Shown here in pieces: positions 253 to 30,238 of a stretch of DNA of 39,902 bases. The notes beneath the pieces were generated by a model. The model saw nothing but the letters and a program-made list of their open reading frames with translations. It ran no database searches and was not told the DNA's origin. Within the stretch, counting starts at the first letter, position 1; each line of letters starts with the position of its first letter. A program made the position numbers and the translations under genes. The DNA is from an uncultured Ignavibacteriales bacterium (GTDB taxonomy: Bacteria > Bacteroidota > Ignavibacteria > Ignavibacteriales > Ignavibacteriaceae): positions 1 through 39,902 of the forward strand of contig CAIYTF010000137.1 of the NCBI GenBank assembly GCA_903929035.1, in the 5' to 3' direction.

Positions 253-2244
253 ATGGCAAATCCTTCTAAATCCTACGATGAACTTCTAAATGAATTAGAA
301 CAGCTTAAACAAGAGAATCAATCTCTGAAAGCAGCTTTTAATAAAGAATATATTAATGGCTTATTAGATTACGGGCATAAGCAATCCGAAAAAGCTGTTC
401 GTGAAAGCGAAGAAAAATTTCACAAAATCTTCTATTCAAGTCCCTGTGCTATGATGATCTCTTCTCTCGCGGATGAACGCGTAATAGATGTAAACAATGA
501 ATTTTTGACATTGAGTGAGTTTGAGAGAGATGTTATCGGGGGAAAAACAGAGAATTTGAACTTATGGGTACATCCGGAACAGAGAACAGATGTATATTCA
601 AAGCTTCTCAAATCCGGTTCGCTGCGCAATCTGGATGCCGAATTGAAGACCAAATCAGGTCAAGTAAAACATATTCTGATGTCGGCGGAGGTGATTACAA
701 TAAACGATGAACCGCGCGTGTTATTTTCAGCTCAGGACATCACGGATCTCAAGAAAACACAAGAAGCTCTTCACGCGTTTCGCCAACAAACCTTGCTTCA
801 AATGGTAAGCGATGGACTTCATATTCTTGACGAAAACGGGAATGTCTTGGAAGCTAATGATTCTTTTTGTAAACTATTGGGTTATACACGCCAAGAGCTT
901 CTGAATATGAACGTGGCTGACTGGGATGTTAAATTTTCCAAGGAAGAGTTATTGATAAGGATAGGCGAATTTATCGATAATCCCCGATCTTTTACAACAA
1001 AACACCGCGCTCGTGATGGACGGATATGGGATGTTGAAATTAATACAGCCGTCATAGCTATTGGAAGCCGTAAATGCCTTTGCGCTTCGGCACGTGACAT
1101 AACCTTGCGAAAATCGGAGGAGTCCCGTTTGCGTGAAAGCGAGGAAATATTTCATACAATTAATAATACATCGCCGGATGCAATTGTTTTGTTAGACCTC
1201 AACGCGACTATTATATTAGCGAATCCTGCCGCCTGTGAAATATTCGGATACGAATCTGTTCTGCAAATGATTGGAAATAACATTTTGGACTTATTTATTG
1301 TGGAAGATCGTATAAAAGCCTTTGAAATGCTTCAACAAATTTCTATCGAGGGGATGGTTAGAAATGTCGAGTATTCGTTCTTGAGAAAAAACGGGACATC
1401 ATATTATTGTGAATTCAGTTGTTCCACGTTGTATGATACAGATGGGAAACCGAGAGGTCTGTTGTCAGTCACTCACGACATCACTGAACGCAGGCACTTG
1501 GAAGATGAACTATGCAGAACTAATTTAGAACTTCAAAGAAGAAATGCCGAAAAAGACAAATTCTTTTCAATCATCGCTCACGACTTGAGAAGTCCTTTCA
1601 CCGGATTGTTAGGATTTACCAAAATGATGACATCTGAAGACAACATATTGTCAATAGAGGAATACGCGAACTTGAGTAAATTAGTCCGTGATTCGGTGGT
1701 AAATCTTTATAAGCTGGTTGAAAATCTATTGGAATGGGCTATGTTTCAAAAAGGAGCGAGCGATTTTATTCCTATCGAATTTGGTTTATCTGAAATGTTT
1801 ATCGGGAGTATAGATTCAATAAAAGAAAGAGCACGGCAAAAAGGAATAGCCATATTCCACGAGAGTGATGGCATCGATAAAATATATGCCGATGAAAAAA
1901 TGATTTCTACTATTCTGAGAAATCTTTTGGCAAACGCGGTGAAATTCACGCGAAAGGGCGGAAATGTTACAGTCAGAGCAAAGGAAACAATAGACGGGAT
2001 GATTGAAATTTCTGTAACAGATACCGGTGTCGGCATTCACAAAGATATGATTGATAAGCTGTTTATATTAGGCGAAAAAGTTGGCACAACCGGAACAGAG
2101 GGCGAACCCAGCACGGGTTTGGGACTAATTCTATGCAAGGAATTTGTTGAAAAACATAACGGTAAAATTTGGGTAGAAAGCCGTAAAAATGTTGGCAGCA
2201 CGTTTTATTTCACGGTTCCAAAGGCAATTAATGACAAACTCTAA
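253..2244 (+). CDS. soluble PAS-domain sensor histidine kinase
   Basis: Orphan histidine kinase of 663 residues that would autophosphorylate on His and pass phosphate to an unidentified response regulator. A short N-terminal coiled coil (about 8-50) is followed by three PAS modules (about 55-172, 176-290 and 297-415), each ending in a D-I-T/D-I-S type PAC segment. Then come a HisKA dimerisation helix with the phospho-acceptor in IIAHDLRSP (H443) and a HATPase_c domain: N-box N557/N561, G1 DTGVGI (590-595), G2 TGLGL (621-625). There is no signal peptide, membrane segment or receiver domain, so it should sense a cytoplasmic ligand or redox/light cue. The start is the ATG at 253 with AAGG 6 nt upstream. 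The catalytic half is strikingly similar to the next gene, indicating a duplication. The signal is unknown. Confidence 0.93.
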   Translation: MANPSKSYDELLNELEQLKQENQSLKAAFNKEYINGLLDYGHKQSEKAVRESEEKFHKIFYSSPCAMMISSLADERVIDVNNEFLTLSEFERDVIGGKTENLNLWVHPEQRTDVYSKLLKSGSLRNLDAELKTKSGQVKHILMSAEVITINDEPRVLFSAQDITDLKKTQEALHAFRQQTLLQMVSDGLHILDENGNVLEANDSFCKLLGYTRQELLNMNVADWDVKFSKEELLIRIGEFIDNPRSFTTKHRARDGRIWDVEINTAVIAIGSRKCLCASARDITLRKSEESRLRESEEIFHTINNTSPDAIVLLDLNATIILANPAACEIFGYESVLQMIGNNILDLFIVEDRIKAFEMLQQISIEGMVRNVEYSFLRKNGTSYYCEFSCSTLYDTDGKPRGLLSVTHDITERRHLEDELCRTNLELQRRNAEKDKFFSIIAHDLRSPFTGLLGFTKMMTSEDNILSIEEYANLSKLVRDSVVNLYKLVENLLEWAMFQKGASDFIPIEFGLSEMFIGSIDSIKERARQKGIAIFHESDGIDKIYADEKMISTILRNLLANAVKFTRKGGNVTVRAKETIDGMIEISVTDTGVGIHKDMIDKLFILGEKVGTTGTEGEPSTGLGLILCKEFVEKHNGKIWVESRKNVGSTFYFTVPKAINDKL

Positions 2245-2553: not shown

Positions 2554-5500
2554 ATGAAACCAAAAATTTTTCTTGTTTTTTCCGCTATCATCCTCTTGAT
2601 TAGTGCTTTTCTCTTATTTGAACTGCATCATTCAGCGGAAAAGGAAATGATACAAAGTTTCGGGCAACATCAACTTGCTGATACTTGGCACATATCCAAT
2701 GAATTGGAAGAAAGCTTGAGTGAAGAATCGCGAGCAATTGAACTTATCACTGAATCTATTTCAAATAACCATAAAACCGAAAACATAGCTGCTTCCGTTC
2801 AAAACTATTTTGAGTATCTGAAAAAGGATCACGTGAAATCTATCAGCGTCTATGATGAAAACGGTGTCATAGTTTATTCAACGGAAAAGAACGCGCTTTT
2901 CAGTAAACACGAGGACAGTGATTTTTTCAGGCAGGCATCCCTGCTTGAAAATAAAGGGAAACAATTGATTTCGACCGATATTCCCGATATATTTGCAAAA
3001 TCGGTCAAAAAAACTGATTTTAATATTATAATTGCCTCGCCAATAATTACCAATCAAACCGGAAAGTTTGCAGGGCAGTTTGCCGGAATAGTGTTGGCAG
3101 TGGCTGATTTAAGTTACGTTATCAATCAATTTTCTAAAGACAGTATACACGATACAAACGAGTATTCCTGGATACTGGATTCTGACGGAACAGTCTTATA
3201 TCATTCTGAGCATCCTGAAATGCTGAATAATAATATATATGCTCAGGATAACAATTGCTTAGAATGCCACGAATCGTTCAATTATGTTGATACAATACTT
3301 TTAAAACCTTCAGGTACCATTTCATATAAACTAAATAAAAGACCTGAAGTATTGTCGAGTTTTTCGACACTTAATTTTAAAAATATTTCTTGGAAAATTG
3401 CCCTGAATATCCCGCTTGAAGAAGTAACCGAAAGTCTTCATAGTAATCTTATAAAGACAGTAATACTTTTTATTTTCATTTTAATTTCATTTGTCGGTGG
3501 CTTTATTTTAATTTCGCGGGGTAACCGGTTGCGGGCAAAAGCAATGGAGGAAGCACAACACTGGAAAACAGAGCATACATTAGAACTTCAATTACGCGAA
3601 GCGGAAAAGCAGTATAAAATAATCGTTGAAAATTCCCCGAGTGCTATTTTCGTTCAAAGCGAGGGGAAAATTGTATTTGCCAACCCCGCGGCTCTATCTC
3701 TCTACGGGGTCACGGATTCAAAGGATATTCTAGGAAAAACGATTTTAGATTTTGTTCATCCGATAGAACGTGAAATTGTCAGCCGGCGGGTAAAAGAAAT
3801 GCTCGAATCCGGCAATTCACTTCCGGTTAATGAAAGAAGAGTTTTAAGACACGATAATAGTATAATTATCGCTGAAGTTGCGCCAACACCGACTACGTTC
3901 CAAAATAAACCCGCGATTCTGATGATTGTAACTGACATTACTGAACGGAAACAAACCGAGTTAGAACGACAGGTTATGAAAGAAATTGCTGATGGAATTA
4001 CATCCACTTCAAGTATCGCGGAATTTCTGAAATTAGCACATAACTCACTCAAGAAACGACTTTACGCGGATAATTGCTTCATCTCTCTTTTTGATCGGGA
4101 TACAAAACTATTTAACTTTCCGTATTTTATCGATTATTTCGAACAGGTTCCCCCATCATCAATGGAAAATAGCTGCGCGGAATTCGTATTTCGAACCGGC
4201 AAGCCGTTACTGCTTACAAAAGAATCATTTCGCCGTCTCGCTGCACAAAACGAAACTGAGTTAGTTGGTCCACAATCTGCCGCTTGGTTAGGTGTACCAT
4301 TACAAACCTCTTCCACTGTAACCGGCGTTTTGGTTATTCAAAATTACGAGGATGATAATACGTATTCAGAGCGGGATGTTCAATTTCTTGAAACGGTAGG
4401 AAGCCAAATTGCCGTAGGTATCGAGCGCAAGCAGGCAAAAGCGGCACTTCGTGCCAGCGAGGCAAAATGGAGAGCCCTTTATTCAATTCTGCCGGTTGGT
4501 ATCTCTATTCTTGATAAACAAAACGAGATTGTTGATTTCAACGCGGCACTTAGCAGTATTCTTGGAATAGAGTCAGAAAATTTAATACAAGGAAGGCATA
4601 AACAACGAAGCTATTTTCGCGCGGACGGTGAACTAATGTCCGCTGAAGAGTTGCCAAGTACTCGCGCGGTTAAGGAAAATAGAGTTATTAAGAATGTTAC
4701 AATTGGGGTCAAAAAAGAAGATGACGAAATAGTTTGGACACAAGTAAGCGCGGCTCCTTTGAATCTTGATGGCATTTCCTGCGTTGTTTCAACAATAGAC
4801 ATTTCCCATCTTAAGCGGGCGGAAGAAAAAATAATTGAAATAAACAATGAACTTAAACAAATCAACATAGGAAAAGATAAATTCTTCTCCATAATTGCCC
4901 ACGATTTGAGAAGTCCATTTGCCGGTTTATTGGGATTATCCGAAATTATGGCAGCAGAAAGCCCAAAAATGCCGCGTGCTGATATTATTCAAATCAGTAA
5001 ATCATTATATGAATCGGTGGAAAATGTTTATAAATTAATAGATAATTTGCTGGAATGGGCAAGACTTCAAAAAGACTCCATTAAACTTATTCCTGATGAT
5101 ATAAATTTATCCGGTCTTTTTTTGCAGAACATTGATTCTATTAAACTAAGAGCATCTCAAAAAGACATTTCCATCATCAATGAAATACCGGAGACTCTGC
5201 ATATTTTAGCTGATGAAAAAATGATTTCGACTGTCCTGAGAAACCTTTTGGCAAACGCTGTAAAGTTCACGAGAAAAGGCGGTAAAGTGGTTGGAAATGC
5301 AATAGAACGAGAAGACGGGATGATTGAAATATCGGTAACAGATACCGGAATCGGCATTCCCTCCGCGAATATTGATAAGCTCTTCAAGTTAGGTGAAGAT
5401 GTGGGCGCGCGAGGAACAGACAACGAACCCAGCACCGGTTTGGGTTTAATTCTATGCAAGGAATTTGTTGAAAAACATAGCGGCAAAATTTGGGTGGAAA

Positions 5501-5565
5501 GCATAGAAAATGTAGGAAGTACGTTCTATTTCACAGTTCCACAAGGTACCTATACACAAGCATAG
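2554..5565 (+). CDS. membrane sensor histidine kinase with extracytoplasmic CxxCH motif
   Basis: Residues are counted from the ATG at 2554 (1003 aa), chosen because AGAAG (2542-2546) precedes it and the protein then opens directly with a membrane segment (about 4-22). The extracytoplasmic part (about 23-300) looks like a double-Cache/PAS-like sensor and contains CLECH (C235, C238, H239), a c-type heme attachment motif. TM2 is at about 302-320. The cytoplasm-facing part has PAS (about 350-470), GAF (about 475-625), PAS (about 632-755), HisKA with H783 in IIAHDLRSP, and HATPase_c (DTGIGI, TGLGL). There is no receiver domain and no neighbouring response regulator. The last roughly 230 residues closely match the upstream kinase, so the pair arose by duplication with exchange of the sensor part. 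Redox, oxygen or NO sensing through heme is my inference. The kinase call is secure. Confidence 0.93.
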   Translation: MKPKIFLVFSAIILLISAFLLFELHHSAEKEMIQSFGQHQLADTWHISNELEESLSEESRAIELITESISNNHKTENIAASVQNYFEYLKKDHVKSISVYDENGVIVYSTEKNALFSKHEDSDFFRQASLLENKGKQLISTDIPDIFAKSVKKTDFNIIIASPIITNQTGKFAGQFAGIVLAVADLSYVINQFSKDSIHDTNEYSWILDSDGTVLYHSEHPEMLNNNIYAQDNNCLECHESFNYVDTILLKPSGTISYKLNKRPEVLSSFSTLNFKNISWKIALNIPLEEVTESLHSNLIKTVILFIFILISFVGGFILISRGNRLRAKAMEEAQHWKTEHTLELQLREAEKQYKIIVENSPSAIFVQSEGKIVFANPAALSLYGVTDSKDILGKTILDFVHPIEREIVSRRVKEMLESGNSLPVNERRVLRHDNSIIIAEVAPTPTTFQNKPAILMIVTDITERKQTELERQVMKEIADGITSTSSIAEFLKLAHNSLKKRLYADNCFISLFDRDTKLFNFPYFIDYFEQVPPSSMENSCAEFVFRTGKPLLLTKESFRRLAAQNETELVGPQSAAWLGVPLQTSSTVTGVLVIQNYEDDNTYSERDVQFLETVGSQIAVGIERKQAKAALRASEAKWRALYSILPVGISILDKQNEIVDFNAALSSILGIESENLIQGRHKQRSYFRADGELMSAEELPSTRAVKENRVIKNVTIGVKKEDDEIVWTQVSAAPLNLDGISCVVSTIDISHLKRAEEKIIEINNELKQINIGKDKFFSIIAHDLRSPFAGLLGLSEIMAAESPKMPRADIIQISKSLYESVENVYKLIDNLLEWARLQKDSIKLIPDDINLSGLFLQNIDSIKLRASQKDISIINEIPETLHILADEKMISTVLRNLLANAVKFTRKGGKVVGNAIEREDGMIEISVTDTGIGIPSANIDKLFKLGEDVGARGTDNEPSTGLGLILCKEFVEKHSGKIWVESIENVGSTFYFTVPQGTYTQA

Positions 5566-7631: not shown

Positions 7632-8309
7632 TTATTTTTTCAATATCTCCTTTAATATTGCCACATCACTCGGTGTTGTTACCTTAAAATTTAACAAGGA
7701 ACCTTCTACAATTTCTATCCGGAAACCGTAGTGATGCATCAATGATGATTCATCAGGAAACTTTAACCCTGCATCCTGTGCTTTCTTCATTGCCTCAAAC
7801 AAGTTTTCATAAATAAATATCTGCGGCGTCTGAACATAAAATATATCTTCGCGATCAACATACTCAAAACAATCCTTACCGGCACGCAAGAGTGTATCCC
7901 GTCCCTGCACACACACTACAGCATTTCCTTTTGCCTTGGCAGTTTTAAATGCCAAGGTAAGAACAGCCTTTGAAATAAGAGGTCTGGCTGCATCGTGTAC
8001 CGCGACATAATCCCCCGATTGTAAACGAAGAGAAGCAAGCGCGTTATATACCGAATCTTGCCGCTCCTTCCCTCCTTCTACAATAGTTTTTAGTTTAGAT
8101 ATATCATATCTCTTTTTGATCCTGTTCAAAACAGGAAAGTAGTCCTTTGAAGCAGCAACGATAATTTCAGTCACCATCGGGTGCTGCTCAAATGCTTCTA
8201 AGGTGTAAGCAATTAGTTCCTTATTTTCAAACTTCAAATATTGCTTAGGCATTTTTGATGCTATTCGGCTTCCCGAACCTGCAGCAGGCAGAACTACAGC
8301 CAGACTCAT
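7632..8309 (-). CDS. ispD: 2-C-methyl-D-erythritol 4-phosphate cytidylyltransferase
   Basis: Transfers CMP from CTP to 2-C-methyl-D-erythritol 4-phosphate in the non-mevalonate (MEP) isoprenoid pathway, in the cytosol. The 225 residues match the family's usual length. Visible motifs are the N-terminal nucleotide loop LPAAGSGSRI followed by KMPKQYL, GGKERQDSVYNAL, VHDAARPL, the QTPQ segment and FPDESSLMHHYG near the C-terminus. The ATG overlaps the queA stop as ATGA (4 nt), so the two genes are translationally coupled. The queA-ispD link is not metabolic, but both are housekeeping genes. Confidence 0.96.
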   Translation of the reverse strand: MSLAVVLPAAGSGSRIASKMPKQYLKFENKELIAYTLEAFEQHPMVTEIIVAASKDYFPVLNRIKKRYDISKLKTIVEGGKERQDSVYNALASLRLQSGDYVAVHDAARPLISKAVLTLAFKTAKAKGNAVVCVQGRDTLLRAGKDCFEYVDREDIFYVQTPQIFIYENLFEAMKKAQDAGLKFPDESSLMHHYGFRIEIVEGSLLNFKVTTPSDVAILKEILKK

Positions 8310-9340
8310 AGAATCAGCATCGCGTCACCAAAGCTGAGAAAGTTGAAATCTTCTTTCAGTGCCTTTCTATATGCTTTCATCACAAATTCAGTTCCGCCAA
8401 AAGCCGCCACCAGCATCAACAGGGTTGATTCAGGGACGTGAAAATTTGTTACTAATTTATCTACAATCTTAAAATCATATTCAGGGAAGATAAATTTATC
8501 CGTCCATCCGCTATTTGGTCTAACTAATCTATCAGCAGTAACAGATGATTCAAGTGCTCTGGTTGTACTTGTGCCAACGACAAACACTTTTTTACCGGTG
8601 TTAATGGTGTTGTTTATTCTGTCTGCAGAATCTTTCGTGATTTCAAAAAATTCCGAATCCATCTTATGTTTAGTTAAATCTTCAACTTCTACGGGGCGAA
8701 ATGTACCAAGACCAATATGAAGAACAACAGGAACAAAATCTACACCCTTCTTTTTTAATTTTTCAATCATACGGTTAGAAAAGTGCAATCCCGCCGTTGG
8801 CGCGGCAACGCTGCCGTCTGTTTTTGCAAACACGGTTTGATAATTTTCCTTATCACTTGGTTCAGCTTCGCGTTTGATATATGGAGGGAGCGGTGTAACA
8901 CCGATTTTCTCCACAGCCTTAAATACATCAGTCGATTGATTAAACCGCACGGTACGTCCGCGTGAGGTTGTATTATCAATAATCTCACACCACAAATCAT
9001 CCGTAAAATAAATCTTATTACCAATGCGTACTTTTCTTGCAGGATCAACTATCACATCCCAAATACATTCACGTGCATTTAACTCCCTGAGCAAAAACAC
9101 TTCTATTATTGCCTGGGTTTTTTCCTTCTTGCCAAATAAACGCGCTTGGAACACTTTGGTCTCATTCACAACAACGCAGTCACCCTCTTCAAAATAGTCA
9201 ACCAAATTGGTAAAACTCTTGATATCAATCGTTTGCTTTTCTCTGTCAAGAACCATCAATTTTGATTTGTCCCGCGGTGAAACAGGATATTTGGGTATAC
9301 TCGTTTTGGGCAGATTATAACTAAAATCTGACAATTTCAT
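8306..9340 (-). CDS. queA: S-adenosylmethionine:tRNA ribosyltransferase-isomerase
   Basis: Makes epoxyqueuosine in tRNA by transferring and isomerising the ribosyl group of SAM onto 7-aminomethyl-7-deazaguanine at the wobble position. From the ATG at 9340 the protein is 344 residues, the usual length, and starts MKLSDFSYNLP as the family does. An in-frame start at 9376 exists but lies inside the terminator hairpin of the upstream gene, so I reject it. Characteristic segments include LPPYIKR, APTAGLHFS, HIGLGTFRPV, GTSTTRALES and TNFHVPESTLLMLVAAF. AAGG sits about 11 nt before the start. It overlaps ispD by 4 nt. Confidence 0.96.
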   Translation of the reverse strand: MKLSDFSYNLPKTSIPKYPVSPRDKSKLMVLDREKQTIDIKSFTNLVDYFEEGDCVVVNETKVFQARLFGKKEKTQAIIEVFLLRELNARECIWDVIVDPARKVRIGNKIYFTDDLWCEIIDNTTSRGRTVRFNQSTDVFKAVEKIGVTPLPPYIKREAEPSDKENYQTVFAKTDGSVAAPTAGLHFSNRMIEKLKKKGVDFVPVVLHIGLGTFRPVEVEDLTKHKMDSEFFEITKDSADRINNTINTGKKVFVVGTSTTRALESSVTADRLVRPNSGWTDKFIFPEYDFKIVDKLVTNFHVPESTLLMLVAAFGGTEFVMKAYRKALKEDFNFLSFGDAMLIL

Positions 9341-9363
9341 ACTTGCTCGTACCTTTACTTTAT

Positions 9364-9390
9364 AAAAAAAGCCCACCGTTTCCGGAGGCT
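9364..9390 (-). terminator. Rho-independent terminator after ppdK
   Basis: On the minus strand a GC-rich hairpin (AGCCTCCG, loop GAAA, CGGTGGGCT with one bulged T) runs straight into seven T. It lies 61 nt after the ppdK stop and ends 24 nt before the queA ATG. It separates the two transcription units and argues against the longer queA start. Confidence 0.8.
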
Positions 9391-9404
9391 AATCAACAAG
9401 GAAA

Positions 9405-9429
9405 GGAAAACCGCTGCACGCGGTTTTCC
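9405..9429. other. perfect 10-bp hairpin between ppdK and its terminator
   Basis: GGAAAACCGC, 5-nt loop, GCGGTTTTCC. It lies 21 nt after the ppdK stop and 14 nt before the T-tailed hairpin. Without its own T-run it is more likely an mRNA 3'-end stabiliser or part of a tandem terminator. Confidence 0.6.
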
Positions 9430-9450
9430 GGTACTTGTTGTCTTTAATTA

Positions 9451-12240
9451 TTACTTATTTTTTTTAACGGCTGCTTTTTTAGCTGCAGGCTTTTTACCTG
9501 TAGTTTTCTTTGCCGCCATTTCTTTCACAACCGCGCGCGCGGCAGCCATTCTCGCGATTGGAACGCGGAAAGGTGAACAGCTCACGTAGTTTAATCCGAT
9601 ACTATGACAGAACTCAACTGAACTTGGTTCGCCGCCGTGTTCGCCGCAGATACCAATCTTTAAGTCCGGTTTGGTGCTTCTGCCTTTGCTCACGCCAATC
9701 TTGAGCAGCTGACCAACTCCGCGTTGATCTAATGCTTCAAACGGATCGTTTGGCAGGATTTCCATTTCGACATATTTAGGCAGGAATGAACCTGCATCAT
9801 CGCGCGAAAGACCGAATGTTGTTTGCGTCAAATCGTTAGTGCCGAATGAGAAAAATTCAGCTTCGGTTGCAATTTCATCTGCAAGCAGAGCTGCGCGCGG
9901 CAATTCAATCATAGTTCCAACCATATACTGAATTTTCACTTTTTTCTCTGCCATTACTTGTTTTGCAACATTAACAACAATTTCTTTTTGACCTTTCAGT
10001 TCATTTACATCACCAACCAAAGGAATCATAATTTCAGGTTTTACCTTGATTCCCGCTTTCACTGCATCGCAAGCAGCTTCAAAAATAGCACGTGCCTGCA
10101 TTTCAGTAATTTCTGGATAAATAAGACCTAAACGGCATCCTCTGAATCCGAGCATAGGATTGAACTCGTGTAATGATTCTATCTTTGCCATCAATTGATC
10201 AAAGCTGATTCCAAGAGCATTAGCAAGTTCTTCCTGCTCTGCTTTTTGATGAGGCAAAAATTCGTGCAGCGGCGGATCTAAAGTTCTGACTGTTACAGGG
10301 TAACCTTTCATTGCTTTAAAGATATCAAAGAAATCTGCTCTCTGGAAAGGAAGCAATTCAGCCAATGCAGCTCTTCTTCCTTCAGCAGTTTCAGAAACAA
10401 TCATTTTGCGGACTGCCATAATACGGTCGCCGCCAAAAAACATATGCTCTGTTCTGCAAAGACCAATTCCCTGCGCGCCAAATGCAATCGCGTTTGCAGC
10501 TTGATCAGGCTGATCGGCATTTGTTCTGATGTCAAGCGTTCGGTAGCTATCAGCCCACTTCATCAATGAATCATACATCTGAAACTCACGTGATTTTTTA
10601 GGATCAAGCGTTTTATTCAGAAGCACTTCAACAACTTCAGAAGGACGGGTTTCAATTTTCCCCGCTATCACTTCGCCGGTTGTTCCATCAATAGAAATAT
10701 AATCACCTTCATTAAGTACGATGTCTTTATTCTCAACGCCCACCGTGCCTTTTGCATAATCAATTTTCAATTTACCGCAGCCTGCAACGCAAACTTTACC
10801 CATCTGACGGGCAACCAAAGCAGCGTGTGAAGTCATTCCGCCGCGAGCAGTCAAAATTCCTTCAGAAGCATTCATTCCTTTAATGTCTTCAGGTGAAGTT
10901 TCAATTCTCACAAGGATAACTTTATCGCCGTTGTTTGCCATAATTTCAGCATCGTGTGCTGAAAGTGCAATCTTGCCTGAAGCGGCACCGGGACCGGCAT
11001 TCAAGCCCTTGGTCATAAATTTGCCTTCATCAATCATCTTGCGTTTTTCTTTCAGGTCAAAGATAGGACGAAGTAATTGATTCAGCTGATTTGGTTCAAT
11101 ACGAAGTAAAGCTTCTTCTTTTTTGATTAAGCCTTCTTTCACCATCTCCAAAGCTATGCGTACTGCAGCCAAACCGGTTCTTTTACCTACACGGCATTGC
11201 AGCATCCACAATTTATCTTGCTGAATAGTGAATTCGATATCCATCATATCCGTGTAATGATTTTCAAGAATTTTACGGAATTTATCAAGCAGGGCGTAAA
11301 TTTTTGGTCTTGCTTTTTTCAATTCTGAAATAGGAAGCGGTGTACGGATACCCGCCACAACATCTTCGCCTTGGGCATTGAAAAGATATTCACCATAGAA
11401 AATGTTTTCGCCGCTTGCCGCATCGCGAGTGAATGCAACACCGGTACCGGAATCTTCGCCCATATTGCCAAATACCATAGATTGAATATTAACTGCAGTT
11501 CCCCACGATGCAGGAATATCATTCAATTTACGATAAACAATCGCGCGTTCATTCATCCAAGAAGCAAACACTGCTCCTATTGCGCCGTACAATTGTTTAA
11601 CCGGATCATCAGGGAATTCTTGTCCTGTTTGTTCGAGAATTGCAGCTTTAAATTCCGCTACCAATTCTTTCAAATCATCAGCTGTTAATTCAGTATCAAG
11701 ATGCACTCCGCGGTCTTCTTTTTTCTTTTCCAAGATAACTTCAAAAGGATCCGAGTCGTGTTTATTAACCGGCTTTAATCCTAACACAACATCACCATAC
11801 ATCTGCACGAAGCGGCGATATGAATCATAAGCAAAGCGCGGATTATTGGTACTCTTAATTATTCCTTGAACGGTAGTATCATTCAAACCGAGGTTCAAAA
11901 TGGTATCCATCATTCCGGGCATTGAAGCACGTGCACCTGAACGAACTGAAAGCAAAAGAGGATTTTTTGGGTCGCCAAATTTGGCTCCCATCTCTTTTTC
12001 AACTTTCTTTATCGAATCTGTTATTTGCTTCTGCAATTCTTTCGGGTAGCTTTTCTTATCAGTAAAATAAGTACATACTTCCGTTGTAATTGTAAAACCG
12101 GCCGGTACCGGCAAACCAATATTAACCATCTCGGCTAAATTAGCACCTTTACCGCCGAGCAAAGATTTCATTTCTGCTTTGCCGTCAGCTTTTTTTCCAC
12201 CGAAAAAATAGACTAACTTCGAGGTTTTGCTCGCTGCCAT
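9451..12240 (-). CDS. ppdK: pyruvate, phosphate dikinase
   Basis: Interconverts pyruvate + ATP + Pi and phosphoenolpyruvate + AMP + PPi. It feeds gluconeogenesis or runs PPi-dependent glycolysis in the cytosol. The order is an N-terminal ATP-grasp domain ([20 protein letters not shown] at the start, then [15 protein letters not shown]), the phospho-histidine swivelling domain with catalytic H472 in [16 protein letters not shown], and the PEP/pyruvate TIM barrel ending in [13 protein letters not shown] and [17 protein letters not shown]. At 929 residues it exceeds the usual roughly 870-890, mainly through a Lys/Ala-rich C-terminal tail of about 25 residues (repeated KK with A/P). The start has a good TAGGAGATA ribosome binding site. 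It is monocistronic: 86 nt after lpxK and ended by its own terminator. Confidence 0.97.
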
Positions 12241-12326: not shown

Positions 12327-13388
12327 TTAATCACCGGCAAACAACTTTGCCGTCATATATTCTTTAAACTCTTCACGCTCTTCAATTTCAAGTTCAATCT
12401 TCAAATAATATATATCGATATCATCTAATTCTTCTTTGAACTGCATCAGCTTTACTGCATCTTTTTGCGTTGTTACAACCGAATAACAATTCTTTGCATA
12501 AAACTCTTTCCGAATCTTTTGCACTTCTTCATTCTTATACCGTTTATGGTCTTTAAAAACTATCCTATGTTCCGCGCTGATTTTCATAGAGCCCAACGCG
12601 CTAAAAAAAGAATGAGGAGAAGCTATCCCGCATACTGCCAAACTGATTTGTCCCTGAAAATCCGCGGGGTTATATTGTCTTCCGTTTCGCACGTCAATAA
12701 ATCCAAGTGCATTATAGCAAGCGTGAAATATTTTCTTACCATCGGCAAATCGGTCAATCTTTTTATCTGCATCCGCACGCGCGGAAAACTTTCTGTTAAT
12801 TACCACGCAATCCGCGCGAATAAGTGAGCTGAATGGTTCACGCATACTGCCTGTTGGTAATGACATTTTACGCAACGGATTATTTTGCATCAAAAATCTT
12901 TGGTCGAATAACACGATATCCAAATCTCTCTTAATCCACCTGTGCTGAAACGCGTCATCCAAAACTATTACATCCGGCTTATACTTTTGTATAAGTTCGA
13001 TTGCACCTTCCACTCTGCTTTCGCTGACAGCGGCAGGACAGCTGCATTCAAGTGCAGTCAGATACATTTCATCGCCTGAATTTTGCACTTCCAAATACAT
13101 TTGGGTTCCGTCACTCACCTCCCGAAAGCCTGTTGTTTCACGTCCATAACCGCGACTCAATGCTGCAACTTTTATATTAATGGATTGCAGTGTTTTAATT
13201 ACATATATCGACATCGGTGTTTTTCCGGAACCTCCCACTGTAATATTGCCAACCGATACTATTTTTGCATCAACTTTCTGTTGTCGAAACCAACCAAAAT
13301 CAAAGAACAAATTGCGCAGTTTTACCGGCACCGAATAAATCGGTATAAACGGGAGAGTCATTACCTGAGCTACATCAAGTAATTTCAT
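12327..13388 (-). CDS. lpxK: tetraacyldisaccharide 4'-kinase
   Basis: Phosphorylates the 4' position of the lipid A disaccharide at the inner face of the inner membrane. From the ATG at 13388 it has 353 residues. That start overlaps the upstream stop as ATGA. A GTG at 13394 is the alternative. The N-terminal hydrophobic anchor region is followed by the P-loop VGNITVGGSGKTP (46-58, K56), then SRGYGR, the SVDRPDDAFQH-like stretch seen here as VLDDAFQHR, and DLDIVLFD. The preceding genes are a DUF374 acyltransferase and lpxB, so three lipid A/envelope genes sit together in pathway order at the end of the long operon. Confidence 0.95.
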   Translation of the reverse strand: MKLLDVAQVMTLPFIPIYSVPVKLRNLFFDFGWFRQQKVDAKIVSVGNITVGGSGKTPMSIYVIKTLQSINIKVAALSRGYGRETTGFREVSDGTQMYLEVQNSGDEMYLTALECSCPAAVSESRVEGAIELIQKYKPDVIVLDDAFQHRWIKRDLDIVLFDQRFLMQNNPLRKMSLPTGSMREPFSSLIRADCVVINRKFSARADADKKIDRFADGKKIFHACYNALGFIDVRNGRQYNPADFQGQISLAVCGIASPHSFFSALGSMKISAEHRIVFKDHKRYKNEEVQKIRKEFYAKNCYSVVTTQKDAVKLMQFKEELDDIDIYYLKIELEIEEREEFKEYMTAKLFAGD

Positions 13389-14047
13389 TTGCACAATTGC
13401 TCGGCTTCTTTTTGCAGTGCATTCAAATCACTGTCACATTGTTCAATTGCCATAGATACTTCATCGCGTTGAGCCATTTTATTAACACGTACCGGCTGCG
13501 AAAACACCAACCGGACTTTTGAAAACGGCTTCGGAATTTGGAACTTGTCCCAGCTCCTCAACTGCCATTTCTTTTCATAACCAACGCCAAGAAGCACCAA
13601 AGGACTTTCGCTTCGCTGGGATGCAACAACAGCACCTGCTTTAAATTTCATTCCTGGTCCGCGAGGTCCGTCAGGCGTTACCATCACGCTGCCTTCATAT
13701 TTTGCAAAGTCGATCATTATTGCCAAGGCAACCTTCCCTCCTTGTGAACTTGAACCCCTTGTCACGACATAATTCCATCTGGACAAAAGCTTTGCCAGAA
13801 CATTACCGTCCTTGCTTTGGCTTGTCAGTCCCATATATTTTTTATCTTTGAACACGTGCCACGGAAGCAGCATTGTCCCGTGCCAAAATGCCAAAATAAA
13901 ATGTTCGCCGTTTCGTTCCAAATTATCAAGTACCTGCTGATTATGAAATTCTATGTGCAATGTTTTTACTAACACCTCGATTAATCTGCCAAGAAACAAA
14001 TTACCGATTGTCCTGAGCAAACCTTGCCTAATCGTTCTTGTATTCAT
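13385..14047 (-). CDS. DUF374-type lysophospholipid acyltransferase
   Basis: 220-residue member of the lysophospholipid/lipid A acyltransferase (LPLAT) superfamily, DUF374 branch. The HX-type motif FWHGTMLLPW (H56) is followed by SKDGNVLAKLL, TRGSSSQGG, the TPDGPRGPGMKFKAG signature and SWDKFQIPKPFSKV, all in the expected order. One N-terminal hydrophobic stretch would tether it to the inner membrane. It overlaps lpxB by 4 nt upstream and lpxK by 4 nt downstream. Its place between two lipid A genes suggests a late acylation step of lipid A or a related envelope lipid. The exact acceptor is not readable from the sequence. Confidence 0.9.
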   Translation of the reverse strand: MNTRTIRQGLLRTIGNLFLGRLIEVLVKTLHIEFHNQQVLDNLERNGEHFILAFWHGTMLLPWHVFKDKKYMGLTSQSKDGNVLAKLLSRWNYVVTRGSSSQGGKVALAIMIDFAKYEGSVMVTPDGPRGPGMKFKAGAVVASQRSESPLVLLGVGYEKKWQLRSWDKFQIPKPFSKVRLVFSQPVRVNKMAQRDEVSMAIEQCDSDLNALQKEAEQLCK

Positions 14048-15174
14048 ATCGCGTCCATCAATAACTCCGCGACCCGCTTAGATGCTTTTTTTGTTCCAAG
14101 CAACGCGTTGATTGATTTCAATTCTGATTTCATCGCCTTATACACATCGGTATCCATAATTCGGGAACCACATTTGTAAATCTCTTTTTCATTTAACTGC
14201 TTTTGAATAAGCTCAGGCATTGCAGTTTTCCCTAAAACGATATTTACCAACCCTATGTTATCTATCTCGATAACATTCTTGCCAATCAGATAAGTAATGC
14301 TGCTTGTCTTATAAACAACTATCATCGGCAGACCCATTAATCCTGCTTCCAATGTAGATGTTCCGGATTTAATAATTCCCAGCACCGCGTGCTTCATAAA
14401 ATTATAAACATCGCCGCGGACAATCCTGAACGCGCTGTCTTTCACTATTCTCTGCAAAAATTCATCTTTCAACGAAGGAGCGCAAACCACTACCGGTTGA
14501 AAATTAAAAGTGTCTGCCAATTTAAGCACGCCGGCACTCACTGCAGGGAATATTCTTTCGACTTCCTGTTTTCTACTCCCGGGAAGAATCAACAATAATT
14601 CTTTATTTTTATCAAATCCGTATTTTTCATATAGCTCAATCTTATCAATAAACGAATATGATTTAATTTCTTCAATTAACGGGTGTCCGACAAACTCCGA
14701 ATGGATTCCCGCATCCTTATACATTTTTTCTTCAAACGGAAACACGGTCATCATCATATCAACACGTTCGTGTATCTTTTTTATTCTTCCTTTACGCCAC
14801 GCCCATATCTGCGGTGAAATGTAATAATAAACGGCAACTCCAAGTTTTTTCAACGAGCCTGCAATATTCAGATTAAACCCCGGATAATCAACAAGCAAAG
14901 CTTTCTTAATGTTCTTGGCTTTTACTAATTCCAAAACTGCACGCTTAACTTTCAATATGAACGGCAAATGCTTTACAACTTCGGTAAAGCCAAGAAACGC
15001 CATATTGTTTGAGTGATAAAGAGCATTAAGTCCTTGATCAATCATCTTGTCACCGCCAATACCGAAAAACTCAATGCCGCTGCCTCGTAATTTAAGCTCT
15101 GCCATCACTTCAGCTGCGTGTAAATCACCTGAGGCTTCACCAGCAATTATTAATATCTTCTCGGCAGAATTCAT
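14044..15174 (-). CDS. lpxB: lipid-A-disaccharide synthase
   Basis: GT19 glycosyltransferase that joins UDP-2,3-diacylglucosamine and lipid X into the lipid A disaccharide at the inner membrane. The 376 residues fit the family. Recognisable segments: IIAGEASGDLHAAEVM at the N-terminus, FFGIGGDKM, VLLVDYPGFNLN-type (here LLVDYPGFNLNI), YYISPQIWAWRKGRIKKI, FPFEEKMY, FVGHPL, LLILPGSRKQEV and the C-terminal SGTSTLEAGLMG. There is no strong Shine-Dalgarno, but the start lies 11 nt after the previous stop. It overlaps the acyltransferase by 4 nt. The 2,3-diacyl precursor genes (lpxA, C, D, H/I) are not in the window. Confidence 0.96.
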   Translation of the reverse strand: MNSAEKILIIAGEASGDLHAAEVMAELKLRGSGIEFFGIGGDKMIDQGLNALYHSNNMAFLGFTEVVKHLPFILKVKRAVLELVKAKNIKKALLVDYPGFNLNIAGSLKKLGVAVYYYISPQIWAWRKGRIKKIHERVDMMMTVFPFEEKMYKDAGIHSEFVGHPLIEEIKSYSFIDKIELYEKYGFDKNKELLLILPGSRKQEVERIFPAVSAGVLKLADTFNFQPVVVCAPSLKDEFLQRIVKDSAFRIVRGDVYNFMKHAVLGIIKSGTSTLEAGLMGLPMIVVYKTSSITYLIGKNVIEIDNIGLVNIVLGKTAMPELIQKQLNEKEIYKCGSRIMDTDVYKAMKSELKSINALLGTKKASKRVAELLMDAI

Positions 15175-26529: not shown

Positions 26530-29049
26530 TTGAATGAGAAAAATTTTACATACATAAGTTTATTCAGCAGTGCTGGAATAGGTTGCTATGGCTTCAAGTT
26601 GGAAAATTTTTCCTGTGTTGCGACTGTTGAAATACTCGAGAAAAGACTTAAAATCCAGAAGTTTAATAATAAATGTGCTTATAATTCTGGTTATATCAGC
26701 GATGACATTACAACAAACGAAGCTAAATGCAAAATTAGAGTTGAGTTACAAAAGTGGAATATTAAAGAAAAAGGCAATGAGTTGGATGTTTTGATTGCAA
26801 CACCGCCTTGTCAGGGGATGTCTGTCGCCAACCATAAAAAAGGAAACGAATTAAACAGAAATTCATTAGTAATTGAATCTATATTGCTAACAAAAGAAAT
26901 ACTCCCTAAATTTTTTATTTTCGAGAATGTCCGTGCATTCTTAACTTCTAAGTGTACTGACACAGACGGAAAAGACAAAATTATTAAAGAGGCTATTGAA
27001 TTGAATTTGGCAGGACAATACCACATCAATTATCAAGTTCTAAATTTTAAAGATTATGGCTGTCCATCGAGCAGGACTCGAACTTTGGTAATTGGAACAC
27101 GAAAAGACCTAAAGGAAATAACACCTTTCGATATATTCCCGAATCTTTCAAAAGAGAGAACACTTAAAGATATTATCGGGCATTTACCTCCTCTGAAAAA
27201 TATGGGTGATATTTCTGAAGTTGATATTTATCACAATTTTAGAAAATATTCACCGGAAATGCAAAATTGGATTTCGGAAATTAAACAGGGTGAATCAGCC
27301 TTTGACAATAAAGATTATAAAAAAATTCCTCATAAAGTGGTTGATAATTTAATTATATATAATGCTAACAAAAACGGGGACAAATACACACGCCAATGCT
27401 GGGATAAAGTAGCACCCTGCATACACACTAGGAATGATATTCTGTCCAGTCAAAACACGGTGCATCCTTCGGATGACAGAGTTTTTAGTATTCGTGAAGT
27501 AATGCTAATGATGTCTGTCCCCGATACATTTAATTGGACTGACAAAAAACAAGCGGATCTAAACAAACTGCCAGTTGAAGAAAAAAAAATATTTCTCGCA
27601 AAAGAAGAAATGAATATTCGCCATTGTCTGGGCGAAGCAGTACCAACTATAATATTTCAGCAAATAGCAGGGAAAATCAGGACTTACCTATCGAACGAGA
27701 AATTAAATGAGCAGGCGGTTAGAAAACTAATTCAACAGGCCAGCCTGGAAAATATAAATAATCTAAATACTTTTTTAGGCAAGAATACCGAGCGACACCC
27801 TTTCTCAATCCTTTCCAAAATTGCCGAGTTATCAAATACTGCCAGAAATGAAACCGCGGCATATTATACAAGGCAGGATATATGTTTCTCAATCATTAAA
27901 GACTTACCTGAAGCAAAAAAATTCAAGTTCATAAGAATACTTGAACCATCAATTGGTGTTGGGAATTTTTTACCACTACTTATTGAAAAGTATAAAACAG
28001 TAAATCAAGTAGTGATTGACGTTGTTGACATTGATGAAAATTCAATCCATACATTAAGACTATTGTTGAAAACCTTAGTCATTCCTAAAAACATTTTAAT
28101 AAATTTTATTAATGATGACTTTTTGCTGCACTCCTTTGAATTTAAATACGACATTGTTGTTGGAAACCCACCATTCAAAAAAATTACAAATCAAAAAGAT
28201 TTATTGGCTACTTATAAAAAGGGGAACTATAACACCGACACAAATAATATATTCTCATTTTTTATTGAGAAATCATTAAATCTCGGAAAAGTTGTTTCTT
28301 TAATTGTTCCCAAAAGCCTCATAGGCACACCGGAATTTAATAAAACAAGAGAGTTGCTGGAAAATATTCAAGTCAAAAAAATAACTGATTATGGTGAAAA
28401 AGGCTTCAAGGGCGTGAAAATTGAGACCATAAGTTTCATCGCTTATACTCAGAAAAAAGCTAAATCAAATAATGTAGAAGTTGAATCATATATTACCAAA
28501 ACTGTAAATATTCAAAGACAAGACTATATTTTCTCAAAAGATTTTCCTTACTGGCTTATTTACAGAAATGATTTTTTTGATGCCATCGCTAACAAAATGA
28601 ATTTTGATATTTTTAAAGCTTATCGGGATAGGCAAATCACAAAAAAAATTACTCGCAAAATAGGGAAAATACGAGTATTGAAATCACGAAATATTAGTTC
28701 TAATAGAACTCTCAGTATAAATAATTATGATACTTTCATTGACGATATTTGTTCTCTGGATGTCAGCAAATATTTAAATAATACTTCTGCTGTTTTAGTG
28801 CCTAATCTAACATATGCTCCCAGAGCGTGTTTTTTACCCCCGAATACTATAGTTGATGGTTCAGTCGCAATTCTTACACTTAAAAATGGTTGCAGACCTA
28901 TTATGGAAAAAGATTTAGAATATTATGGAACAAAAGAGTACGCCCAATTTTATGCCATTGCACGGAACTATGGAACACGTTCATTAAATATTGACAATAA
29001 TTCGGTTTTCTTCTTTGGAATATTCAAGGACGGTAGTAGTGAAAACTGA
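26530..29049 (+). CDS. fused m5C / m6A DNA methyltransferase of a type II R-M system
   Basis: 839 residues carrying two complete methyltransferase modules. The N-terminal half is a C5-cytosine enzyme: SAM motif I ISLFSSAGIGCYGF, catalytic Cys in PPCQGMS (C94), ENV (132-134), SSRTR as the QxRxR motif (180-184), target-recognition stretch, then GEAVPT as the motif IX/X region. The C-terminal half is an N6-adenine enzyme of the Eco57I-like kind: ILEPSIGVGNFL (470-481) and NPPF (546-549), with its own specificity region after about 650. The start is TTG at 26530 without a clear Shine-Dalgarno; an in-frame stop lies 9 nt upstream. It overlaps the nuclease gene. Methylating C on one strand and A on the other points to a non-palindromic target, an inference. 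Low GC suggests acquisition. Confidence 0.9.
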   Translation: MNEKNFTYISLFSSAGIGCYGFKLENFSCVATVEILEKRLKIQKFNNKCAYNSGYISDDITTNEAKCKIRVELQKWNIKEKGNELDVLIATPPCQGMSVANHKKGNELNRNSLVIESILLTKEILPKFFIFENVRAFLTSKCTDTDGKDKIIKEAIELNLAGQYHINYQVLNFKDYGCPSSRTRTLVIGTRKDLKEITPFDIFPNLSKERTLKDIIGHLPPLKNMGDISEVDIYHNFRKYSPEMQNWISEIKQGESAFDNKDYKKIPHKVVDNLIIYNANKNGDKYTRQCWDKVAPCIHTRNDILSSQNTVHPSDDRVFSIREVMLMMSVPDTFNWTDKKQADLNKLPVEEKKIFLAKEEMNIRHCLGEAVPTIIFQQIAGKIRTYLSNEKLNEQAVRKLIQQASLENINNLNTFLGKNTERHPFSILSKIAELSNTARNETAAYYTRQDICFSIIKDLPEAKKFKFIRILEPSIGVGNFLPLLIEKYKTVNQVVIDVVDIDENSIHTLRLLLKTLVIPKNILINFINDDFLLHSFEFKYDIVVGNPPFKKITNQKDLLATYKKGNYNTDTNNIFSFFIEKSLNLGKVVSLIVPKSLIGTPEFNKTRELLENIQVKKITDYGEKGFKGVKIETISFIAYTQKKAKSNNVEVESYITKTVNIQRQDYIFSKDFPYWLIYRNDFFDAIANKMNFDIFKAYRDRQITKKITRKIGKIRVLKSRNISSNRTLSINNYDTFIDDICSLDVSKYLNNTSAVLVPNLTYAPRACFLPPNTIVDGSVAILTLKNGCRPIMEKDLEYYGTKEYAQFYAIARNYGTRSLNIDNNSVFFFGIFKDGSSEN

Positions 29050-30238
29050 CAAATTGCTCAATAAATACAATTACGATGTTCGAGTTACCAAAGATGCAAG
29101 GTTTATGGACCAAAAATGTACACCTGATGTTGTTTGTATTGTTGCGGACTGTGTTTCTAATCTTATAGGAAATGATTCTCAAAAAGAGTTTACAGTTCAG
29201 GATATTTGGGATTCACAGTACTTTATCAAAAACGTGAAAGAAATATTTAATAAACCCTCAGCAGCCAATCCAACTACTAAGTCTGAATATGATAAGTTCA
29301 TTCAACAACCTCTGCGTCTCTTCGCCTATGCGGGTATTCTAAGTATTGAAAAAAGGGGAACAAAAAATTACTATTATGTGACCGAACCTGAAATATTAGA
29401 ATATATTTCACTAAAAGATCGTAATGCTTATGTCTTCTTATATAAATATTTCACAAAAGTTCTGAAAGATAGTGATATACTAAAATACTTTGAAGAATAT
29501 AAGTCTAAATATGAATCTAACAACTTATCATCCGAAGACTTCACTTTTCTCCAAGACAAATTTATTAAGTTTATTAAAGGCAATACTCCAATTAATGGCT
29601 CTCTTGAAATTAAACGAATATTTCCAAAAATTCTAAACGTATATGCCTCTGAAAACAATTTGCCTGGTTCCATCAAGGGCAGATTGTCAAAATATCAATT
29701 CTGCTATACTGATTTAATGTACAATCGCAAAAATTGGAGAGACATTAAAAAGAACAAAAACATTTCAAGGCAAGAGGCTGAAGCCGAATATGACATTTTA
29801 ATCTCGGAGAATGAAAATCCATACGGTGCTTATTTGATGCAAAAAGCAATGAATCAAATAAGAAAAATGTATTCTGAAAGTGAAGTAAATGACCAATGGA
29901 GCAATGGAGAGGCAACTCAAATCCATCATATTTTTTCTAAAAATGAGTTCCCTCAACTTTCTCATTATATGGAAAACTTGATAAAACTTACTGCGACACA
30001 ACATTTCACAAAAGCACATCCCAACAACAAAACAAATGCAATAAATCGAGATTACCAACTTGTTTGTTTATTGGCTAAATCAGATAGCATTGTGAAGTCT
30101 TTGCATAGAGGAGAGCTATATTATAGAAAAGAATCTTTCATTTATTGCATCAACACAGGTCTTTCAAAAGACCTCAAAAACAACTTGTCCTTTTCACAAA
30201 TTCAAACAAATTTAGTCACTATTTATAACAACTCTTAA
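29039..30238 (+). CDS. HNH-type restriction endonuclease
   Basis: 399 residues from GTG at 29039, preceded by AAGGA (29026-29030), overlapping the methyltransferase by 11 nt. A TTG at 28991 is possible but less likely. The N-terminus (DARFMDQKCTPDVVCIVADC) and a winged-helix-like middle lead to a ββα-Me (HNH) site: HH at 296-297, N313 in ENLIKL and H322 in the QHFTKAH stretch. It lacks the zinc-binding cysteines many HNH domains have. Position and coupling to a dual methyltransferase make it the cognate nuclease. HNH enzymes paired with m5C plus m6A modification are known for asymmetric targets (MnlI, HphI, Eco31I). Membership in one of those families is not proven, and the recognition sequence cannot be read. 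Confidence 0.82.
   Translation: MKTDKLLNKYNYDVRVTKDARFMDQKCTPDVVCIVADCVSNLIGNDSQKEFTVQDIWDSQYFIKNVKEIFNKPSAANPTTKSEYDKFIQQPLRLFAYAGILSIEKRGTKNYYYVTEPEILEYISLKDRNAYVFLYKYFTKVLKDSDILKYFEEYKSKYESNNLSSEDFTFLQDKFIKFIKGNTPINGSLEIKRIFPKILNVYASENNLPGSIKGRLSKYQFCYTDLMYNRKNWRDIKKNKNISRQEAEAEYDILISENENPYGAYLMQKAMNQIRKMYSESEVNDQWSNGEATQIHHIFSKNEFPQLSHYMENLIKLTATQHFTKAHPNNKTNAINRDYQLVCLLAKSDSIVKSLHRGELYYRKESFIYCINTGLSKDLKNNLSFSQIQTNLVTIYNNS

Follow-up and report, generated by a model that had tools for sequence, protein, structure and literature searches.

We analyzed a contig from an uncultured Ignavibacteriales bacterium. The window, by which we mean the whole stretch of 39,902 nucleotides, is all of contig C137, from an assembly of 3.36 Mb in 222 contigs. 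The window encodes a sensor histidine kinase of 1003 amino acids, which we will call P0001. We chose the ATG at 2554 as its start, instead of the GTG at 2470, because the first two residues (M1 and K2) are invariant among 9 aligned homologs. Given this start, the sequence TGCTTAGAATGCCAC at 3256-3270 is translated in frame as CLECH (residues 235-239). The features of P0001 and of the adjacent kinase are as follows.

253..2244 (coding to 2241), plus strand: neighboring PAS kinase, paralogous in its kinase core but lacking a Cache module (Pfam, alignment)
2554..5562 (stop codon 5563-5565), plus strand: sensor histidine kinase P0001, 1003 amino acids (translation)
2563..2628, plus strand: transmembrane helix 1 (TM1), about residues 4-25 (Kyte-Doolittle windows, peak at residues 5-23)
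2629..3462, plus strand: extracytoplasmic double Cache domain (dCache_1), residues 26-303 (Pfam, AlphaFold model, fold matches)
3211..3222, plus strand: HPEM, residues 220-223, with candidate distal heme ligands H220 and M223 (conservation; the ligand role is inferred)
3256..3270, plus strand: CLECH, residues 235-239, with predicted heme c attachment at C235 and C238 and predicted proximal ligand H239 (sequence, conservation)
3457..3519, plus strand: transmembrane helix 2 (TM2), about residues 302-322 (Kyte-Doolittle windows, peak at residues 302-321)
3610..3945, plus strand: PAS domain, residues 353-464 (Pfam)
4009..4425, plus strand: GAF domain, residues 486-624 (Pfam)
4492..4827, plus strand: second, weaker PAS domain, residues 647-758 (PAS_7 at 22.5 bits, cut-off 27; other PAS models also match in a second stretch)
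4873..5070, plus strand: HisKA, residues 774-839 (Pfam, 32.1 bits, cut-off 26.9)
5212..5544, plus strand: HATPase_c, residues 887-997 (Pfam, 81.4 bits, cut-off 26.4)

Because P0001 exceeds the cut-offs for both HisKA and HATPase_c, we consider it to be a sensor histidine kinase. The first-pass annotation of this DNA, which was made from the sequence alone, gave the order after the sensor as PAS-GAF-PAS-HisKA. Pfam agrees, with the second PAS weaker, and adds the HATPase_c. Among 25 matches listed for P0001 in a scan against NCBIfam, the only model over its cut-off was a generic PAS S-box domain. From the alignment with the neighboring kinase, the phospho-acceptor is probably H783 (nucleotides 4900-4902). 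The two kinase cores are 49% identical over 355 amino acids. The neighbor had been described as a paralog that lacks the sensor module, and it has no match to a Cache model at E <= 1. By eye, the frames adjoining P0001 include neither a response regulator nor a cytochrome. CLECH is the only CxxCH among the stop-to-stop frames of at least 100 amino acids in the window.

Elsewhere in the window, at 26530-29049 on the plus strand, an 839-amino-acid protein looks, by eye, like a fusion of a C5-cytosine methyltransferase and an NPPF-type adenine methyltransferase. It is overlapped by a frame of 415 amino acids (28991-30238, plus strand) with an HNH-like stretch (by eye). The two could possibly be a restriction-modification pair.

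A double Cache domain with a CxxCH motif

The first-pass annotation placed CLECH between TM1 and TM2 of the kinase, and hydropathy segments do lie on either side of it. (We called transmembrane segments from 19-residue windows over 1.6; one lone weak window, at residue 172, is within the Cache domain.) Since there are transmembrane segments on both sides of residues 26-303, CLECH is predicted to be extracytoplasmic. The same annotation described the domain as Cache/PAS-like. Cache was right, and we can be more specific: this is a double Cache, dCache_1 (PF02743), which P0001 matches with 51.8 bits (the curated cut-off is 45). All 26 members of the alignment that we used for modeling (A3), P0001 included, match dCache_1 at E <= 1.

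With these 26 sequences as input, AlphaFold predicted a double Cache with a pLDDT of 86.2 (85-88 around the motif) and a pTM of 0.83. Two Cache modules lie between TM1 and TM2, as judged from the model, DSSP, and hydropathy. The strands of the membrane-proximal module are at residues 204-209, 213-217, 253-259, 265-275, and 278-287. In this model, which was built without heme, the segment that connects strands 2 and 3 contains both HPEM and CxxCH, leaving three strands after the CxxCH.

Solved structures are consistent with this fold. Most of the 50 matches listed, from Foldseek and from VIA-align, are sensor domains of chemoreceptors and histidine kinases, and several have titles with dCache, tandem Cache, or tandem PAS. 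For instance, 6mni (“tandem CACHE domain of PscC”) has a Z of 19.8, with 234 aligned residues and an rmsd of 2.7.

By composition, such a motif would be rare in P0001. C235 and C238 are the sole cysteines of P0001 before residue 508, and the whole protein has 6. Given its composition, we would expect 0.0008 CxxCH motifs in all of P0001. When we shuffled P0001 20,000 times, CxxCH appeared within residues 26-303 in 1 shuffle and anywhere in 7.

Conservation of the motif and gene neighborhoods

To find homologs of the sensor, we compared residues 1-329 of P0001 to 80 genomes from the host's family, which gave 28 matches. CxxCH is at the same place in 24 of these, all with E values of 2e-9 or better. 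The four that lack it (L020, L021, L022, and L026) are the four weakest matches, at 9e-7 to 8e-4. Alignment A1 contains 18 of the 28 matches.

A class-wide search gave 30 loci that we read, out of the matches listed; 17 repeat earlier loci and 13 are new. CxxCH is present in 29 of the 30 (12 of the 13 new ones), and the exception (L115) is a fragment that ends before the motif and covers only model positions 1-87. In a phylum-wide search, we read 21 of 22 loci and left out L038, which is a paralog from the host's own genome. CxxCH was found in 8 of the 21 (6 of them new). Six of the 8 are strong matches (E of at most 4.9e-83), and L049 and L051 are weak. The other 13 are all weak matches (E >= 1.4e-16), and we take them to be ordinary dCache domains.

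We also scanned named genomes with a peptide pattern around HPEM that left out the CxxCH. Of 50 pattern matches, 26 were confirmed by tblastn with P0001, and all 26 have CxxCH (18 are new and 8 are shared with the family search). In one of these, L084, the gene is broken by stops, and we left it out of A3. The titles of the named loci include Ignavibacteria, Bacteroidetes/Prolixibacteraceae, Syntrophales, Syntrophus and other “Deltaproteobacteria”, Acidobacteria/Terriglobia, Gemmatimonas, Nitrospirae, and KSB1. Our tree program puts seven phylum labels on these loci; nearly all of them are from metagenome bins, in which any one placement may be wrong. In a viral collection, the pattern had matches, none of which is a relative of the heme dCache or of the PF11845 domain (discussed below).

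Across the family, named, class, and phylum sets, none of the strong homologs has the same domain without the cysteines or the histidine. The first-pass annotation had proposed homologs as a check on C235, C238, and H239, and every strong homolog whose motif region was read keeps the CxxCH. We conclude that the motif is real and is conserved far beyond chance.

In a combined tally, overlapping loci were counted once. In this tally, L026 has no frame at the threshold (we read it separately as lacking CxxCH), and L078 was counted as “no heme” through the length filter alone, as its CxxCH is present in the named set. On a quick tree, the heme label requires 4 changes, as compared to 13.9 in shuffles, and at least 3 are forced by well-supported branches, which would argue against a single simple gain; but several rows of this tree are on very long branches, L084 is labeled “none” because of its broken frame, and the CxxCH columns were kept.

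The HPEM block is also conserved. H220 is 15 residues and M223 is 12 residues ahead of C235. To quantify this, we combined the loci with CxxCH from the family, phylum, and class searches and removed duplicates, which left 42 loci, none of them selected on the HPEM block. (The named set was excluded, and conservation of the Met there proves nothing, because the search pattern itself contained the Met.) The His is present in 39 of the 42 and the Met in 35. Neither is invariant: H220 is replaced by Asn in L005, M223 is replaced by Phe or Leu in L010, L011, L018, L019, and L091, and L049 and L051 have CxxCH without an HPEM-like block. We infer that H220 and M223 are candidate distal ligands of the iron.

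L051 (2-1651, minus strand) is unusual in other ways. It is a HAMP kinase whose sensor resembles a single Cache; by eye, CYACH follows an early strand, and a C-x4-C-H is located near the end. Maybe this sensor is a diheme Cache.

Some of the homologs have informative neighborhoods. In two Nitrospirae contigs (L082, 6886-11316, and L083, 6509-11058), the genes form one run, in which the heme dCache kinase is flanked on one side by a cytochrome with 10 CxxCH motifs and on the other by a response regulator. A Pfam scan of L082 identified its response regulator as the sigma-54 type. In an acidobacterial contig (L080, 63-8923), the heme dCache kinase is followed, after three intervening frames, by ccmE, ccmF, an ABC ATPase, and ccmB. 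In a contig from Syntrophales (L070), a heme dCache kinase and a PF11845 kinase (7923-11579 and 12972-14966) are separated by one response-regulator/HD gene.

Predicted heme attachment and a proposed mechanism

Heme c is attached by the cytochrome c maturation (Ccm) system, whose recognition motif is C-x2-C-H. The host's genome encodes a CcmA-like ABC ATPase, CcmB, CcmC, CcmE, and CcmF in one run (our search covered Ccm components other than CcmD, CcmG, and CcmH). Also, PF01578 is present in 18 of the 18 genomes of the family that have a CxxCH dCache domain. We view the presence of Ccm as weak evidence for heme c, because these genes are common and because we counted them only in genomes that carry the domain. 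Still, P0001 combines the two features by which we would recognize a covalent heme c protein: a CxxCH that is predicted to be extracytoplasmic, and cytochrome c maturation genes in the same genome. Judging from its sequence, P0001 likely carries one heme c on two cysteines in its extracytoplasmic part. The heme-c interpretation in the first-pass annotation is partly supported.

Alternatively, C235 and C238, which are the only outer cysteine pair and are close in sequence, could form a redox-switched disulfide, or could form a metal site with H239, with no heme attached. A disulfide needs no histidine, yet H239 is kept along with both cysteines in the strong homologs that we read, and the genomes have Ccm-type genes that would recognize just this motif. 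We think that this alternative is very unlikely.

We consider it probable that P0001 is a covalent heme-c sensor kinase that detects redox state or a diatomic gas outside the cytoplasm, with the heme in the membrane-proximal Cache module. We propose that C235 and C238 receive the heme from the Ccm system, on the outer side of the cytoplasmic membrane. H239 would be the proximal ligand of the iron, and H220 or M223, from the loop just ahead of the motif, would be the distal ligand. The trigger could be a change in the redox state of the heme, or a diatomic gas (NO, or O2) that displaces the distal ligand. Either would move the segment that links strand 2 to strand 3 in the Cache module seated on TM2. 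The signal would then pass through TM2 and the PAS-GAF-PAS region and alter, upward or downward, the autophosphorylation at H783.

There are precedents for both kinds of trigger. Sensors from Geobacter have His144/Met60 ligation, with redox-linked release of the axial Met (in excerpts of PMC8396549), and a HAMP-linked sCache_heme protein binds NO tightly and selectively (in excerpts of PMC12889525).

Another explanation is a heme that stays six-coordinate, as a fixed redox center that would report the redox poise of quinones or cytochromes and would not sense gases. HPEM offers strong ligation by His or Met, and in L082 and L083, a gene for a 10-CxxCH cytochrome lies directly upstream. Also, the host lacks the families for respiration of O2 or NO that we tested: we found no match in its genome to PF00115 (heme-copper oxidases and NO reductases), to cytochrome bd subunit I, or to NrfA. 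On the other hand, the window encodes no further CxxCH protein, and the tight binding of NO by the HAMP-linked sCache_heme protein (in the excerpted parts of PMC12889525) argues against a heme that is closed to gases. We regard a fixed redox center as possible but somewhat doubtful. We favor a mechanism in which the distal ligand changes in response to redox state or to a gas, within a module that would rest on TM2, and we do not choose between these signals. The absence of matches to PF00115, cytochrome bd subunit I, and NrfA leaves a link to the respiration of O2 or nitrite in this organism unsupported, and the host may be an anaerobe.

P0001 is not the only kinase of this kind in the host. 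A second dCache heme kinase (L036, 592 amino acids) has a dCache_1 score of 44.4 bits, just below the cut-off. A separate gene encodes a PF11845 kinase (88.7 bits, cut-off 24.1). In all, the genome has three sensor kinases with CxxCH, on contigs C107, C24, and C137. Thus, the heme dCache and sCache_heme can share a genome and even, as in L070, a neighborhood.

Comparison with sCache_heme and other sensors

According to excerpts of a 2026 preprint (PMC12889525), no Cache domain was known to bind a cofactor covalently before sCache_heme (PF11845), which is proposed to have arisen by insertion of a short piece of a cytochrome into a Cache scaffold. The first-pass annotation had compared the sensor of P0001 to periplasmic heme-PAS sensors, which it held to be known mainly from chemoreceptors of metal-reducing bacteria. 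The same excerpts put the Geobacter heme-PAS chemoreceptors in sCache_heme, which P0001 does not match. The view that such sensors are mainly chemoreceptors of metal reducers is outdated, as PMC12889525, as excerpted, describes histidine kinases, chemoreceptors, and c-di-GMP enzymes from many phyla.

We asked if P0001 might nevertheless belong to PF11845. P0001 has no match to this model at E <= 1. Just 1 of the 26 aligned members has a match, with an E value of 0.048, and hhalign gives a probability of under 5%. The PF11845 structures 3b42, 3b47, and 5b82 are absent from the 50 fold matches listed, which excludes nothing. We therefore rejected membership in PF11845.

The heme site also differs. 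In sCache_heme, the CxxCH is in an expanded loop that precedes the last strand (excerpts of PMC12889525, where this is stated plainly in a legend alone). For Geobacter, excerpts of PMC3460858 label the strands 1-4 and put the motif after strand 3 and before strand 4, yet a five-stranded sheet is mentioned as well. By eye, in 29 PF11845 loci from genomes of the family (among the matches listed), the CxxCH falls between stretches similar to “RYMKPI” and “GDLRGAVSI”, near the end of the domain. The CxxCH of P0001 is not in such a last-strand loop, as three strands follow it in the model. A structure predicted for the PF11845 domain of L070 from its single sequence has a mean pLDDT of 35.7 and is unusable, so we compared the two sites from the papers and from sequence order, read by eye. 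When the PF11845 kinase from the host was compared to solved structures, the best 60 of 72 matches all covered the part after residue 228.

Did the two families acquire heme once, and then drift apart? Both are Cache folds with CxxCH, and L051 is a possible bridge, since by eye both kinds of position are occupied in its sensor, by CxxCH (following an early strand) and by C-x4-C-H (toward the end). Local alignment with hhalign lines up the two motifs, at a probability of only 2.7-4.2%. Set against this are the profile results, with nothing at E <= 1 for P0001 and one member of 26 at 0.048, and the three strands after the motif, as compared to a motif before the last strand (in excerpts of PMC12889525). 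A shared acquisition appears unlikely to us. Because the site is different and there is no profile link, we favor independent acquisition.

More specifically, the double-Cache family could show that the Cache superfamily captured heme c twice, and independently. This family, on contigs with seven phylum labels, would hold its heme between strands 2 and 3 in the membrane-proximal module, with the His and Met of HPEM as a built-in pair of distal ligands, and so have a short intramodular ligand switch directly above TM2. We give this full proposal about an even chance. If it is correct, bacteria may have reached heme-bearing Cache sensors more than once, and a dCache heme at another site would be an independent test case that makes the capture of cytochrome fragments a repeatable route. 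It would also predict a heme cofactor for kinases that are labeled only as dCache_1 in the profile libraries that we used.

Heme-c sensors with Cache domains were already known. In a literature search of open-licence PMC papers, we found no heme-c dCache, and so no double Cache with heme c at this site. The closest counterpart is sCache_heme (Tll0287, GSU0582, and GSU0935; also known as DUF3365 or Tll0287-like). Like P0001, these are extracytoplasmic sensors of the Cache superfamily with one conserved CxxCH, which is the feature that the P0001 family shares with them, and they are often fused to kinases. Unlike P0001, they have a single Cache module instead of two. Their heme c has been demonstrated for some members (in excerpts of PMC12889525), while that of P0001 is predicted. 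Also, the axial ligand Met60 of GSU0935 is about 80 residues ahead of its CxxCH (in excerpts of PMC8396549), as compared to 12-15 residues for HPEM in P0001.

The dCache_1 sensors PctA, Tlp1, and Mlp37 belong to the same family as P0001 by profile and have matching folds. Among the fold matches that were listed, no title mentions heme and many name small-molecule ligands. Tlp1 (4wy9), which is the dCache_1 sensor that we checked, differs from P0001 in having no CxxCH in the alignment. Finally, DcrA from Desulfovibrio vulgaris is, as P0001 is predicted to be, a periplasmic heme c sensor, and it senses redox potential and oxygen (in excerpts of PMC8396549). By its description, DcrA is set apart as a chemoreceptor, whereas P0001 is a kinase.
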